DNA from: Clostridia bacterium
GTDB lineage: Bacteria; Bacillota; Clostridia; Oscillospirales; Butyricicoccaceae
DNA length: 64,000 nt
Assembly (NCBI GenBank): GCA_017441945.1
Contig: JAFSBG010000080.1
Span: 1-64,000, forward strand
Direction: 5' to 3'
In this document: positions 4,172 to 57,330 of the stretch, one piece after another
Layout: each line of letters starts with the position of its first letter
How positions within the stretch are numbered: position 1 is the first letter of the stretch
Made by a program: the position numbers and the translations under genes
The notes under the pieces: model-generated
Databases searched by the model: none
Told to the model about the DNA's origin: nothing
Seen by the model: only the letters and a program-made list of their open reading frames with translations

Positions 4172-4382
4172 TAGATGGTCTTTTGACCATGAGTATCTAT
4201 ATTATAAGTAACCACTGAATAAATCAGAGAATGTTCAGCGGTGAGATATTTTTTCATCAGGCTGACTAAAAGCCGCAGGCAAGGCTTTGTGCCTTAACGA
4301 GGATTTTTGGGCAGAAATGATGGAAAAAGAGCCACCGATGAGCGTGCTATTGATTTAAGAAGGGGTTACAAACTAAAAGGCG
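4172..4382 (+). ncRNA. Structured RNA segment of unknown class upstream of the T-box
   Basis: This stretch has no reading frame but can fold. ATGGTC-tttt-GACCAT lies at 4174-4189. ACCaCTGAA (4211-4219) can pair with TTCAGcGGT (4234-4242). A 10-bp helix TTTTTTCATC (4249-4258) with GATGGAAAAA (4319-4328) would enclose a GGC/GCC hairpin near 4260-4273 and AAGGC-tttgt-GCCTT (4281-4295). It does not match a riboswitch consensus I know. It could be an independent small RNA, a 5' domain of the pheST leader, or chance pairing. Confidence 0.4.
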
Positions 4383-4619
4383 TTGAAAAAGAGAGTAGCA
4401 TAAAAGGCGTGAAGCAGAGAGGGATTGAATGGTGTGATTTTCCCCATGGCCGCTATGTGAAGTTCACTTTGGAGCCCTGTTTTTGAAGTAACAGTAGAGA
4501 ACAGCGTATCCCCTGCGTTAAAGGGTCTGAGTGTCCTGTATTTTTACAGGAAACCAGGGTGGTACCACGGAAACTATGTTTTTTTCGCCCCTGTCTTATG
4601 ACAGGGGCTTATTTTTTAT
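4383..4619 (+). promoter_or_regulatory. T-box riboswitch, tRNA-Phe responsive, controlling pheST
   Basis: Stem I begins at the conserved GAGAGTAGCA (4391-4400) and closes after the specifier region, where TTC at 4463-4465 (a Phe codon) sits in the usual context before ACTTTGGAGC. The hallmark T-box sequence AGGGTGGTACCACGG is at 4556-4570. The competing terminator is the 11-bp hairpin 4587-4608 followed by a T-rich tract. Known mechanism: uncharged tRNA-Phe pairs with the specifier and the T-box, stabilises the antiterminator and turns on the operon. The specifier agrees with the genes downstream. Confidence 0.95.
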
Positions 4620-22872: not shown

Positions 22873-23018
22873 TGTGATAAATCACATTGAATAGGTTACA
22901 ACCCCTCCGACGGCTAACGCCGCCACCTCCCCTTGCACAGGGGAGGCTACAAGTTTTCTTGCCTCCCTCTGACGAGGGAGGGGGACCACGAAGTGGTGGA
23001 AGGAGAGAACTTATTTAA
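22873..23018. repeat. MITE-like element with inverted ends
   Basis: The palindrome TGTGATaaATCACA (22873-22886) is followed by TTGAATAGGTT (22887-22897), then hairpins in a CTCC/GAGG-rich body, ending GAACTTATTTAA (23007-23018), the reverse complement of TTAAATAAGTTC. It is about 130 bp with near-identical inverted ends and no reading frame. The body includes CCTCCCTCTGACGAGGGAGG and CCACgaaGTGG. Confidence 0.65.
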
Positions 23019-23021
23019 TTC

Positions 23022-23133
23022 GTGACGAAGTCACACCGCATCTGCGCAGCAGTATGTAATCACACGCAGTGTGTATGTAATCGCCTTGCGTATGGCATCA
23101 CCACAGGTGTATGTAATCTGTACCTGCAGTGCA
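23022..23133 (+). repeat. Hairpin-linker array with TATGTAAT linkers
   Basis: Order: GTGACgaaGTCAC (23022-23034), linker ACCGCAT, CTGCgcaGCAG (23042-23052), TATGTAAT, CACACgcaGTGTG (23061-23073), TATGTAAT, CGCcttGCG (23082-23090), TATGGCAT, CACCacaGGTG (23099-23109), TATGTAAT, CTGTACctgcaGTGCA (23118-23133). Palindromes differ in sequence while linkers are nearly constant at 8 nt. It joins a TTGGATAA-headed module at 23134. There is no coding potential. It belongs to the family described under 24388, 29303 and 57171. Confidence 0.75.
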
Positions 23134-23244
23134 TTGGATAAAATTCTCTCCCCCGTCAAAACCTGTGGTTTTGCCACCCCCCTCATCAGAGGGAGGCAAG
23201 GTCTTATGCGTAGGGGAGCTGCTTGCCTCTCCCGTATTATTCAA
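23134..23244. repeat. Short element between two hairpin-linker arrays
   Basis: It begins TTGGATAAAATTCTCTCC (23134), carries AAAACCtgtGGTTTT (23158-23172) and CCCCTCatcaGAGGGAGG, then a GTAGGGGAG...CTCTCCC unit (23210-23234), and ends ATTATTCAA (23236-23244), the complement of TTGAATAAT. The ends are inverted copies of each other. Confidence 0.6.
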
Positions 23245-23335
23245 TGCGCCGCAGGCACCATAATGTTGCACAGCAACAATTCATGCGTTTACGCAATTTA
23301 TGTACGCAGTACAATTCATGGCGCAGCCAATTTAT
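23245..23335 (-). repeat. Hairpin-linker array with ATGAATT/ATAAATT linkers
   Basis: Read on the minus strand from 23335: ATAAATT, GGCtgcGCC, ATGAATT, GTACtgcGTAC, ATAAATT, GCGTaaACGC, ATGAATT, GTTGCtgtGCAAC, ATTATGG, TGCCtgcGGCGCA, then TTGAATAAT. All linkers are exactly 7 nt. The array starts 3 bp after the stop codon of the P1-peptidase gene. Confidence 0.8.
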
Positions 23336-23338
23336 TTC

Positions 23339-24367
23339 CTACAAATCCATATATTCTGTCAGGGAGTGGGCAACTCTGCCGTTTCTGCCTGTGACAGTTT
23401 CGGCGTGAAGGAGAGAGCTGATAACAGCTTCCTCAACACCCTCTGTGACAGCTATAAACAGGCTGTTGATTTTGTCCTCATGGAGAGTTTTAGTCTCGAC
23501 AATCGCCTTTTCCTCGTAATGCTTGACCTTATTTGCAGTTGTGAAAGCATAGACAACATCGCCTGAGCCGTTGCCGTAATAGGAGCCTGTGCGGGCAAGA
23601 CCTGCAGGCACACGCTTGCAAAGGCGTTTAAGCTGACGCTCGTTGACAGGGATATCTGTTGCAAGAATAATTATAATCGAACCCTTGTCCTCCTCTGCCC
23701 ACTTGTCCTTGATTCGCTTGCCAAGCTTGTCGCCGTCGACGATAAGACGGTCTGTTGCGCCGAAATTGCTCATTACAAGAACACCAATTGTGTATTCTTC
23801 GCCGTCAAGCTCGACGATACGGGAGGCTGTACCGATGCCGCCCTTTAAGCCATAACACATCATGCCTGTGCCGCCTCCGACGTCACCTTCTTCAAAGTCC
23901 TCACTTGCATTTTTAAGGGCTTCAAAAACGTGCTCCTCCTTGATAAAAAGCTTGCGGATGCAGTTCAGGTTGCCGTCGTTGCACTCGCAGACGACAGGAT
24001 TTACTGTGCCTGTTGTGTCGCCGATATCCTCATTCTGCTCAAGCATATATTTAACGAGAGCTGTTGCCGCTGTGCCGACAGAAAGGGTATTTGTCAGCAC
24101 GATCGGGGTTTCAATAGTGCCAAGCTCGTCAATCTGGACTGTACCTATGCTCTTTCCAAAGCCGTTGATGACATAAGTTGCGGCAACCACCTTTTCTTTG
24201 AAAATATTGCCCTCATGAGGAAGAATTGCTGTAACGCCTGTGCGTGCATCCCCCTCTTTAAGGGTTACATGGCCGACCTTGACGCCCTTTACATCTGTGA
24301 TGGCGTTGCGTGCGCCCTTTTTCATAGTGCCGATGTTGATATTATATTTTGATGTATCAATACCCAT
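23339..24367 (-). CDS. P1 family (DmpA/S58-type) aminopeptidase-like protein
   Basis: 342 residues, typical of the self-processing S58 family. The N-terminus GARNAITDVKGVKVGHVTL is the family signature. The autocleavage site is Gly229-Ser230 in EEDKGSIIIILATDIP; Ser230 would become the nucleophile of the mature beta chain. Other conserved pieces are VGGGTGMMCYGLKGGIGTA and SNFGATDRL. Family members release N-terminal residues or cleave beta-peptides; the substrate here is not predictable. An AGGAG-type site precedes the start at 24367. It is flanked on both sides by hairpin-linker arrays. Confidence 0.92.
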   Translation of the reverse strand: MGIDTSKYNINIGTMKKGARNAITDVKGVKVGHVTLKEGDARTGVTAILPHEGNIFKEKVVAATYVINGFGKSIGTVQIDELGTIETPIVLTNTLSVGTAATALVKYMLEQNEDIGDTTGTVNPVVCECNDGNLNCIRKLFIKEEHVFEALKNASEDFEEGDVGGGTGMMCYGLKGGIGTASRIVELDGEEYTIGVLVMSNFGATDRLIVDGDKLGKRIKDKWAEEDKGSIIIILATDIPVNERQLKRLCKRVPAGLARTGSYYGNGSGDVVYAFTTANKVKHYEEKAIVETKTLHEDKINSLFIAVTEGVEEAVISSLLHAETVTGRNGRVAHSLTEYMDL

Positions 24368-24387: not shown

Positions 24388-24480
24388 ATGAATAGTGTAA
24401 ACACATGGATTATCTTGCGATATGAATTGCACTTTGTGCATGAATTGTTGCAAAGCAACATTGCGGTGTGATAAATCACA
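24388..24480 (+). repeat. Hairpin-linker array with ATGAATT linkers
   Basis: Order: linker ATGAATA, GTGTaaACAC (24395-24404), ATGGATT, ATCttgcGAT (24412-24421), ATGAATT, GCACtttGTGC (24429-24439), ATGAATT, GTTGCaaaGCAAC (24447-24459), ATTGCGG, TGTGATaaATCACA (24467-24480). Every linker is 7 nt and every unit a different palindrome. It begins about 20 bp upstream of the P1-peptidase start codon, so it may be part of that gene's 5' region. Confidence 0.82.
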
Positions 24481-24812
24481 TTGGATTGATTTCGCTCCCT
24501 CCGTCACTTCGTGACACCTCCCTCGACCCGAAGGAGGCAAAAAAGCTGTTAAGCCTCCCATTGTTAAGGGGAGGGGGCGCCGTAAACGGCACTAGCTCCG
24601 CGTCGCCACGAATGGTGGTGGAGGGGTGTAGGGCGTAGCCCGTCTGTTTAATCAAATGCATTGGATAAGTTTTATCTCTCCGTCACATTACACCCCAAAC
24701 AGCAGGCTGTTCGGGGACCCCACAAAATTAAATAGGTGCGGCGGCACTCGCCGCCAGTCGCGCACTTGCGCTCCGTGTGCCACCTCTCCTGAAATAGGAG
24801 AGGCGAGGGGAT
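24481..24812. repeat. CTCCCTC hairpin elements between the P1-peptidase and pucR-like genes
   Basis: No gene. A first element runs from TTGGATTGATTTC (24481) to TTTAATCAA (24647-24655) and includes GTCACttcGTGAC and CCTCC/GGAGG hairpins. After ATGCA a second begins TTGGATAAG (24661) and runs to the stop of the regulator gene; it contains CCCCaAACAG-cagg-CTGTTcGGGG with ACCC following, a form also seen at 11330-11358, and a CTCTCC-tgaaata-GGAGAG hairpin at its end. Confidence 0.65.
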
Positions 24813-28007: not shown

Positions 28008-29300
28008 ATGAAGAACTTCGAAATCGTAAATTACGCTCTTGATTCCCTTAAAAATAAAGGCGCCCAGAAGGCTCAGTGCATCGGCACATTCTCAACAACT
28101 TGGGAGCTTACAGCTCTTTCCGGCAATATCGAGCTTCTGAGAACAATAAATGACGAAACCTCCATCGATATGAAGGGCTACTTCGATAATAAGATGGGCG
28201 GTATCTCCATCAGCACATCGGATCTTTCGGTCATTGACGAGGCTGCACAGAGCTGTCTTGACAACTCCAAGGGTGCTAAAGCAGATGAAACTCCTGCAAT
28301 GAACGAAGAAGCTGTTGTCAAGGTATTCGGCACTCCTGCCAAGGAGCCTGACCTTGAAAAGCTCATCTTCCGCACAAATGAATTCCTCGATAAGGCTCGC
28401 GAAATGTATCCTAATGTGCTCATTCGCCAGATGATCGTGCTTTATACAGTTGAAGAAAGCATTTACAAGAACACATTCGGCGTTGACATCACAGAATACG
28501 AAGATGTTTACTCTGTAAACATCATGTTCTCCGGCTTTGATGGCGACCTTAACTCCTCTTTCAACACTTATGCATTCGCCCTCAAGGACCTTGAAACTCC
28601 AATTATGGACGTTGCTCTCGTTTCCAAGCGCCTCGCCGAAGCTGAAAAGATGGTACACACTCACAAGTATCCTGAAAAGGTTGTGGGTGCAATGATTGTC
28701 ACACCACACTGCCTCAAGGACTTCCTCGGTCAGCTTATGAATGCTTATGCTTCTCCTAACGCTCTCGTTGGCGGCGGCAGCAAGTGGCAGAATGCTTTGG
28801 ACACAAAGGTAGCCTGCGATAATTTCAGCCTTTACAGCAAGCCACTTGATGAAAATATGGCTTATAACAACCATTACACATCTGACGGCTTTATCGCAGA
28901 AAATCAGGCTATCATCGAAAACGGCGTGCTCAAGGGTATGTTTGCCGACCATTACACAGCAGCAAAGACAGGTCTTCCACGCAGAAAGTCGGGCGGACGC
29001 TTCTTTGTAATTCCAAAGGGCGACAAAACTCTGGACGAAATGATCGCATCTGTCGAAGACGGCATCATCATCAACCGCTTCTCGGGCGGTCACGCAGGTG
29101 CATCGGGCGACCTTTCGGGTATTTCCAAGAACAGCTTCTACATCAAGAACGGCAAGCTGGACGAGGCTGCAAGAGAAACTATGATTTCTGTCAACCTTTC
29201 CGACCTGCTTATGAACATTGATGCAATTTCTGTTGAAACTGTAAACGATGGTTCTTCCGATCTGCCATACATCGCAGTAAAGAACGTGACTATTCTTTAG
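28008..29300 (+). CDS. TldE/PmbA-like metalloprotease partner subunit
   Basis: 430 residues, no HExxxH motif, as expected for the non-catalytic TldE partner. Conserved parts include SSFNTYAFALKDLETPIMDV, the GGGSKWQNALD region and the C-terminal FSGGHAGASGDLSGISKNSF typical of the family. AGGAGG lies at the end of the tldD-like gene. No terminator follows; a hairpin-linker array begins 2 bp after the stop codon, which could serve as the mRNA 3' end. Confidence 0.92.
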   Translation: MKNFEIVNYALDSLKNKGAQKAQCIGTFSTTWELTALSGNIELLRTINDETSIDMKGYFDNKMGGISISTSDLSVIDEAAQSCLDNSKGAKADETPAMNEEAVVKVFGTPAKEPDLEKLIFRTNEFLDKAREMYPNVLIRQMIVLYTVEESIYKNTFGVDITEYEDVYSVNIMFSGFDGDLNSSFNTYAFALKDLETPIMDVALVSKRLAEAEKMVHTHKYPEKVVGAMIVTPHCLKDFLGQLMNAYASPNALVGGGSKWQNALDTKVACDNFSLYSKPLDENMAYNNHYTSDGFIAENQAIIENGVLKGMFADHYTAAKTGLPRRKSGGRFFVIPKGDKTLDEMIASVEDGIIINRFSGGHAGASGDLSGISKNSFYIKNGKLDEAARETMISVNLSDLLMNIDAISVETVNDGSSDLPYIAVKNVTIL

Positions 29301-29302
29301 TT

Positions 29303-29416
29303 GCACTATCGTGCGCGATATGTGCTTACGCACACGATATATTTGCTTTGCAAATTCGATATTCGGCACAGCCGAGCGATATGTTCCTGCGGAACGTTAA
29401 TGTGTGACAAGTCACA
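29303..29416 (+). repeat. Hairpin-linker array with NCGATAT linkers
   Basis: Order: GCACtatcGTGC (29303-29314), GCGATAT, GTGCttacGCAC (29322-29333), ACGATAT, ATTTGCtttGCAAAT (29341-29355), TCGATAT, TCGGCacaGCCGA (29363-29375), GCGATAT, GTTCCtgcGGAAC (29383-29395), GTTAATG, TGTGACaaGTCACA (29403-29416). Five linkers of exactly 7 nt and six unrelated perfect palindromes. Arm lengths vary from 4 to 6 bp, loops from 2 to 4 nt. Confidence 0.88.
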
Positions 29417-29572
29417 TTGATTAAAATCACTCCCTCAGTCACACTTTGTGTGCCAGCTCCCTCGTCTGATGGAGCCATGAAACAAATTAACGCAAATCTG
29501 CTTGCCTCCCTCTGCCGAGGGAGGTGGATTGCGTAGCAAGACGGGGGGAGAGATATTATATTCAATTGATTT
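29417..29572. repeat. MITE-like element with two inverted CTCCCTC modules
   Basis: It starts TTGATTAAAATCACTCCC (29417) and ends GGGAGAGATATTATATTCAA (to about 29565), so its ends are inverted repeats. The left module reads ACTCCCTCAGTC, ACACtttGTGT, GCCAGCTCCCTC...; the right module is the same design on the other strand (GCCTCCCTCtgccGAGGGAGG, GATTGCgtaGCAAGAC). About 150 bp, no reading frame. Confidence 0.7.
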
Positions 29573-51564: not shown

Positions 51565-51900
51565 GGTATTCCTCCATAATGTTTTTCGTTGTTTTTTATT
51601 TATTGCGACACCATACATGGCGGAAAATCTGCAACGCTTCCGTGTGTATCACGGTCTGGGCATAAATCAAGCCGCATAATATCATACTGATACTGTCGGC
51701 TTTCACAAATTACGCAGGTTGGTCTCTTGTTCAGTTATGTGGCTTAAGGACATAGTCATCAGTTCCACAAGGTTTTTATAAGGTACTCTTTGCGTTCAAT
51801 TTTCCAGCCGCCCGATTGTCGGACCTACTCCGTCGAAGTTACCTGCTTTAAGCAGCAATCTCCGACTTCATCGCATTTTTCTTGCGCCTTTCTTTAGCGC
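51565..51900 (-). promoter_or_regulatory. Long structured leader of the S10 superoperon
   Basis: About 335 nt between the promoter and rpsJ. Visible hairpins: CTGCTTTAAGCAG (51843-51855) and an AAGCCG...CGGCTT stem with inner TATCA/TGATA pairing (51669-51702). No T-box or known riboswitch motif. In E. coli L4 controls this operon through its leader; here the class of leader is not identified, so autoregulation is inferred only from length and position. Confidence 0.5.
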
Positions 51901-57146: not shown

Positions 57147-57170
57147 TGGCTGTCCGTCCTTTCTTGTTGA

Positions 57171-57264
57171 ATGAATTGACTTCGTCATGAATTGGCAAAG
57201 CCATGAATTGCATAAATGCATGAATTGTTTGCCGTCAGCAAACATTATGGTGTGACACGTCACA
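57171..57264 (+). repeat. Hairpin-linker array with ATGAATT linkers
   Basis: Order: ATGAATT, GACttcGTC (57178-57186), ATGAATT, GGCaaaGCC (57194-57202), ATGAATT, GCATaaATGC (57210-57219), ATGAATT, GTTTGCcgtcaGCAAAC (57227-57243), ATTATGG, TGTGACacGTCACA (57251-57264). Four identical 7-nt linkers and five different palindromes. It starts 25 bp upstream of the minD start codon and runs away from the gene. Confidence 0.88.
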
Positions 57265-57330
57265 TTAAATAAGTTCACTCCCTCAGTCAAAACCTCTGGT
57301 TTTGCCAGCTCCCTCGTCTGAGGGAGCCAG
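57265..57330 (+). repeat. CTCCCTC hairpin module following the array
   Basis: TTAAATAAGTTCACTCCC (57265), AGTC, AAAACCtctGGTTTT (57289-57303), GCCAGCTCCCTCGTC, then TGAGGGAGCCAG. The layout is the same as at 23134, 24481 and 29417, with different hairpin arms. No right-hand inverted end was found. Confidence 0.75.

Follow-up and report, generated by a model that had tools for sequence, protein, structure and literature searches.

What is the array of short hairpins that stands just upstream of the Shine-Dalgarno region of a putative P1-peptidase gene in a 64-kb stretch of DNA from a Clostridia bacterium (the window, by which we mean the whole stretch analysed)? An earlier note on this DNA had described the array, called array B, as five palindromes alternating with four 7-nt linkers, all of which we found (Table 1). 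Palindromes cover 74% of its 93 nt, compared with an average of 30% in dinucleotide shuffles; this coverage was reached by 3 of 2000 such shuffles and by 1 of 2062 segments of the same size within the 64 kb. The same note had placed an array at both ends of the P1-peptidase gene, and a similar array in reverse orientation does lie at the other end, at 23250-23335; orthologues of the gene occur in 9 of 30 relatives. Ordinary regulatory RNAs are also present in the window, namely a T-box leader (4374-4595) and an S10-Clostridia leader (51816-51879).

Table 1. Positions of the hairpin arrays, their parts and neighbouring features in the window, and of RAYT-like matches elsewhere in its genome (G000).
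Feature	Position	Strand	Basis or comparison
Array B: ATGAATT subfamily, left arm, with five hairpins and four 7-nt linkers	24388..24480	+	Window sequence, G001/G002 comparison
Array B palindrome GTGTaaACAC	24395-24404		
Array B palindrome ATCttgcGAT	24412-24421		
Array B palindrome GCACtttGTGC	24429-24439		
Array B palindrome GTTGCaaaGCAAC	24447-24459		
Array B palindrome TGTGATaaATCACA	24467-24480		
Array B 7-nt linkers	24405-24411; 24422-24428; 24440-24446; 24460-24466		
Element-centre remnant TTGGATTGATTT	24481..24492	+	Cf. CTATTAAATAR centre (complete G008 copies), TTGAATAGATTT in G001
Nested CTCCCTC repeat ("module 1"), inserted in element centre	24493..24668	.	Absent from same G001 site (L036/L005 vs L037)
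Array A, right arm of ATGAATT-subfamily element (AATTCAT/AATTTAT linkers), 3' end of putative P1-peptidase gene	23239..23335	-	Window sequence
Arm of TATGTAAT (ATTACATA) subfamily	23010..23128	+	Matching IVP gene in same genome, G000:C110:3867-4166
Array C, left arm of GCGATAT subfamily	29298..29416	+	Window sequence, subfamily survey
Array D, left arm of ATGAATT subfamily	57170..57262	+	Window sequence, genome-wide pattern count
Putative P1-peptidase gene between arms A and B (host gene, outside element)	23339..24367	-	Product name from earlier note
RAYT-like matches, G000	C180:25017-25508; C162:11661-12155; C30:29508-29984; C102:2007-2498; C151; C11		

In the window's own genome (2.26 Mb in 184 contigs, the window being contig 71) we counted 48 occurrences of ATGAATT-N7-20-ATGAATT, compared with one of the reversed control pattern; the counts in two congeners were 109 and 69. 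The inserts between the linkers in the window's own genome are nearly all palindromic and differ in sequence. Complete copies were clearest in a genome of a sister genus (G008), where the left arm reads ATGAATT-h1-ATGAATT-h2-ATGAATT-h3-ATGAATT-h4, followed by a related linker, h5 and a CTATTAAATAR centre, and the right half is an inverted arm with AATTCAT linkers and hairpins different from those of the left arm. In outline, the element has about four 7-nt linkers, perfect hairpins of differing sequence between them, a TATTAAATA-like centre and an inverted second arm; compared as terminal repeats of the MITE type, the inverted arms share their linkers only. Among the clusters tested, the arms were in outward order (+-) in 38 and in the order -+ in one, and most copies in the window have had one arm lost or replaced. 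The linkers were also considered as target-site duplications, which was ruled out by a linker-agnostic scan that returned few linker families, common to loci and genera.

Arrays A to D had been said to follow a rule by which the hairpin side of each faces the nearest gene. Their orientation is consistent, but it is not tied to the gene: the arms point away from the centre of the element, single arms face the 5' ends of genes in 34 cases and the 3' ends in 32, and gene orientation at array-bearing gaps showed no difference from that at other gaps (p = 0.24). Because the element has two outward-pointing arms, the apparent rule reflects its own symmetry and not a relation to genes. The suggestion that hairpin array and "module" form one unit did not hold up, since a near-identical orthologue of array B in G001 (L037) lacks module 1; the module is a separate repeat, inserted later within the centre. 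Looking for an empty site, as had been proposed, we found one in G002 (L038), where a gap of 53 bp separates the two genes at the position at which G000 and G001 carry the array. Repeats of the form CTCCCTC...GAGGGAG recur in the centres of hairpin arrays (22890-23232, 24493-24668, 29428-29540 and 57275-57330), as though insertions favoured the centre. Between 23005 and 23335, two arms are placed back to back around CTCCCTC modules, one of the TATGTAAT subfamily and the other an ATGAATT right arm, an arrangement resembling a chimera of two elements.

Our surveys were based on pattern and profile searches and on selected stretches, and most of the genomes are fragmented metagenome assemblies. 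Within one named collection, Clostridia, Oscillospiraceae and a small number of other gut metagenome-assembled genomes had palindromic inserts in the pattern; matches in unrelated bacteria were non-palindromic chance matches. Of the 15 genera of the family, 2 carry the ATGAATT subfamily, as do 27 of the 169 genera sampled in the order, with controls near zero. At the level of the class, 18 of 223 genera have the GCGATAT subfamily, with 75-bp arms that are identical between different families. The distribution across Clostridia is patchy. Five GCGATAT elements (L256, L257, L259, L260 and L261) are bordered by a TTGCATCTAAACCTTATGnnTCGCAA repeat, which may be a preferred target or an outer end. 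Searching for carriage by plasmids or phages, we found no match among known members of either; 103 stretches of viral contigs fit the linker pattern, as pattern matches only. In the literature we searched on hairpin arrays, Clostridia MITEs, Gut-1 RNA and IVP repeats, with subscription journals mostly outside its coverage, the element is not described.

At one locus, seen in two orthologous stretches (L167/L172), the gene for a PF05635 four-helix-bundle protein (IVP, S23p) lies between the arms. The L167 protein matches PF05635 at 91.2 bits (cut-off 33.8), and its nearest solved structure is PDB 2rld (3e-26). Matches to PF05635 above the cut-off were found in 27 of 28 array-bearing genomes, in up to nine copies, compared with 8 of 28 genomes of an unmatched array-free set (p = 1.3e-7). 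When the flanks of about 90 IVP genes were read, a two-armed hairpin array, usually with four linkers each way, lay directly upstream of most; a complete +- array was directly upstream in 44 of 66, with a median of 24 bp from the last linker to the start codon. To our knowledge, PF05635 proteins have been known for decades from within 23S rRNA insertions and have no assigned function.

The linkers define at least 11 subfamilies. Those at IVP genes are GCGATAT, TCGATAT, RTGAAAT, ATGAATT, GCTAAAT, GTGATAT, xTGATG, ATGAAGC, GTGAAGT, ATGATAT and TGAATAAT, the last of which may be a different kind of repeat; a further class, ATGTAAT, stands at an IVP gene in the window's own genome. Linker and protein go together: the nearest-neighbour IVP carried the same linker in 64 of 70 cases, compared with 6.2 after shuffling (maximum 14 in 500), and in 41 of 70, compared with 6.5, when pairs more than 70% identical were left out, kinship being ignored in both tests. 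Up to six linker-IVP pairs occur in one genome, each class is found in 2 to 7 host families, and GCGATAT-class IVP genes share up to 86% DNA identity between families. The single IVP found in the window's own genome (on contig C110) has the same linker as the window array at 23010-23128, and no ATGAATT-class IVP was found in the fragmented metagenome assemblies of the window's genus. The sequences suggest that a cognate member of the IVP/S23p family recognises the element. A second IVP lineage, of the FAVRIV type (L435, L437 and L431), is without hairpin arrays. Two of these array-less genes (L435 and L437) adjoin tRNA genes and have short flanking CAACTTTCAACT-type repeats, and may belong to another small mobile element.

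Interspersed, multi-copy, intergenic and nested, with inverted halves and an empty site, these arrays could also be read as ordinary MITEs, or as repeats of the REP kind that a transposase mobilises, with the IVP gene carried along as a passenger. Divergent RAYT-like proteins, first met in array-rich genomes, initially looked a promising partner, and the window's own genome has about eight such Y1/HUH matches, several of them intact and single-copy. These have no flanking hairpin arrays, however, and none of the RAYT flanks inspected was a pair of arms. A profile search of 80 genomes found no association: among 30 array-bearing genomes 11 had RAYT-like HUH proteins, and among 50 array-free ones 12 did (p = 0.31). 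The array-rich genomes that lack them include G105, G320, G206 and G279. Beside IVP-array units no transposase gene was recognised, IVP being the sole recurrent gene, and a mere passenger would leave the matching of linker and IVP unexplained. We therefore consider a transposase-driven origin of this kind quite unlikely.

The arrays might instead serve the host, as transcription terminators or as landmarks for replication or supercoiling, with IVP as a host DNA-binding protein. Their intergenic position would suit such a role, and many sites are occupied in both of two species whose flanks are about 80% identical (G008 and G084); the stems of these orthologous copies are conserved and their loops variable, which could mean a long-term host function. 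Yet the arrays are patchy across genera and absent from close ones, they prefer neither gene end nor gene orientation, and a genome may hold many linker-IVP pairs. In congeneric sister species, moreover, the same intergenic site can hold wholly different hairpin sets (L200/L241, L024/L242), through either repeated insertion or whole replacement at one site; in one array the first hairpin was kept and the remaining hairpins were replaced. We regard a host-serving structure as very improbable.

One subfamily already has a name. The (G/A)TGAAAT subfamily corresponds to Rfam RF01706, "Gut-1 RNA", with full-score matches. Of 40 genomes searched, 27 had full-score matches, and these were almost all array-bearing; every one of the 28 array-bearing genomes had 2 to 47 copies, compared with one match in the 12 array-free genomes (p = 5e-9). 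The ATGAATT arm of locus L262 scored 29.4 against the RF01706 covariance model, below the gathering cut-off of 50, and nothing in the 64-kb window reaches that cut-off, whereas the TGAAAT subfamily of the same genomes does. The Gut-1 consensus nevertheless aligns to the ATGAATT arm, with hairpins and conserved 7-nt linkers in the same order, and complete Gut-1 copies are two-armed. Gut-1 was rated "certainly RNA" and was found only in human-gut sequence (Weinberg et al. 2010, PMC2864571). This rating and the full-score matches favour an alternative, in line with Rfam's proposal for Gut-1, in which every arm acts as a small RNA, non-coding or cis-regulatory: at IVP genes it would be a 5'-UTR operator for their own mRNA, and elsewhere a regulatory RNA or IVP sponge. 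The position of arrays directly before IVP start codons fits an RNA operator, and the hairpins would form in RNA too. A purely regulatory role, with IVP controlling its own mRNA through the array, is the main rival to the interpretation that we favour.

The loops bear on which strand and which molecule would fold. Read along the outward strand, which leads away from the centre, the loops of three subfamilies include 95 triloops of the form C(GNA)G and 10 of the complementary C(TNC)G, with 61 tetraloops C(GNNA)G and one C(TNNC)G, making 156 against 11 (p = 7e-21, 5e-7 and 3e-8). Seven further linker classes, found later and independently, gave 34:0 and 21:0, or 55 against 0 in sum (p = 6e-17). 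Published DNA selections place d(cGNAg) and d(cGNNAg) among the hairpin loops of highest stability in DNA. The third base of the tetraloop is R or Y alike (GNRA in 34 of 61) and C(UUCG)G is absent, so that the loop preferences fit single-stranded DNA better than RNA, and the outward strand is favoured more clearly by DNA than by RNA folding energies. Mismatches among 526 units were equally rare for G.T (9) and A.C (10), with no excess on either strand; nothing thus points to one RNA strand tolerating G.U pairs, and choosing an RNA strand by G.U pairs was ruled out. Judged from sequence, loop chemistry marks the outward strand as the folded one, and as DNA. Because the arms are inverted, a single transcript could have the preferred loops in only one of them; copies occur in every gene orientation, and the strand modelled as Gut-1 is the one with the poorer loops. 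Weighing these points, we hold a structured RNA to be unlikely, and the results suggest that the Rfam non-coding RNA family Gut-1 is really a DNA element.

Array B is probably an arm of an interspersed selfish element that is widespread in gut Clostridia, in a copy that is truncated, nested and without a gene; the parental unit would be a two-armed array with an IVP gene. Such a unit would comprise about 4+4 seven-nucleotide linkers with their hairpins, inverted about an A+T-rich centre, and a PF05635 gene starting some 24 bp after the array. We infer that the outward, 3'-ending strand becomes single-stranded; its hairpins would then form and, irrespective of their own sequence or length, keep the 7-nt linkers between them exposed and evenly spaced. 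In Xanthomonas, the S23p homologue forms a pentameric ring (PMC4990558), and by analogy an IVP ring might bind several exposed linkers, in which case the linker would be the IVP recognition site. IVP could then protect the 3' strands or pass them to host enzymes of replication or recombination, which would copy them into further intergenic sites, and gene-less copies may be moved in trans by the same IVP, much as REPs are by RAYTs. We know of no catalytic domain in IVP, which counts against IVP-driven movement and makes host replication or recombination the simplest assumption. Only tentatively do we propose a class of mobile DNA that would spread although it encodes no transposase, recombinase or reverse transcriptase, its sole protein being a pentameric, single-stranded-DNA-binding IVP that would read a 7-nt code between hairpins and recruit host replication for insertion. 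If true, this would give the PF05635 family its first function and would reclassify Gut-1 RNA as DNA. The pairing of linker and IVP would amount to a ready-made recognition code, in which eleven or more proteins have predicted seven-nucleotide sites that could be exchanged, and since each repeat subfamily has its matching IVP, the role of the IVP/S23p family becomes testable. The element would also be a case in which loop sequences by themselves reveal selection on single-stranded DNA hairpins.

Several known systems share parts of this design. Avd, the accessory protein of diversity-generating retroelements, is a homologous four-helix-bundle pentamer that binds nucleic acid; it is needed by these retroelements and works with a reverse transcriptase, whereas no reverse transcriptase was seen with the elements here. 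The 23S rRNA IVS of Leptospira and Coxiella is likewise a small element with a protein of the same family, and in Coxiella, where the IVS has been called selfish, the S23p ORF follows three tandem heptamer repeats (PMC4990558). The IVS lies inside the 23S rRNA gene, however (helix 45 in Coxiella), whereas the elements described here are intergenic, between protein genes, with no rRNA family match at the arrays; they are present in many copies, are mostly gene-less and carry their hairpin arrays in two inverted arms. REP/BIME sequences with RAYT, or REPtrons (PMC3733652), resemble them in their palindromic intergenic repeats, inverted pairs and surplus of gene-less copies, and in a repeat-specific protein, encoded beside the parental copy, that recognises single-stranded DNA. 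They differ in that our elements have no GTAG/CGTC tag at the foot of the palindrome, that linkers and not stems are constant while hairpins vary within an array, and that the partner is IVP and not an HUH transposase. Gut-1, with its three hairpins and the 7-nt linkers between them, is one subfamily of the element. Its published description is that of a non-coding RNA, but in the present analysis it is a single arm of a multi-copy DNA element that has two arms, related subfamilies and a cognate protein. Finally, the 3' overhangs of Streptomyces telomeres (PMC4513846) likewise have tandem hairpins on a 3'-ending strand, GCA loops with sheared G:A closure and a dedicated binding protein, but those hairpins stand at chromosome ends with a terminal protein, whereas ours belong to internal, interspersed elements.
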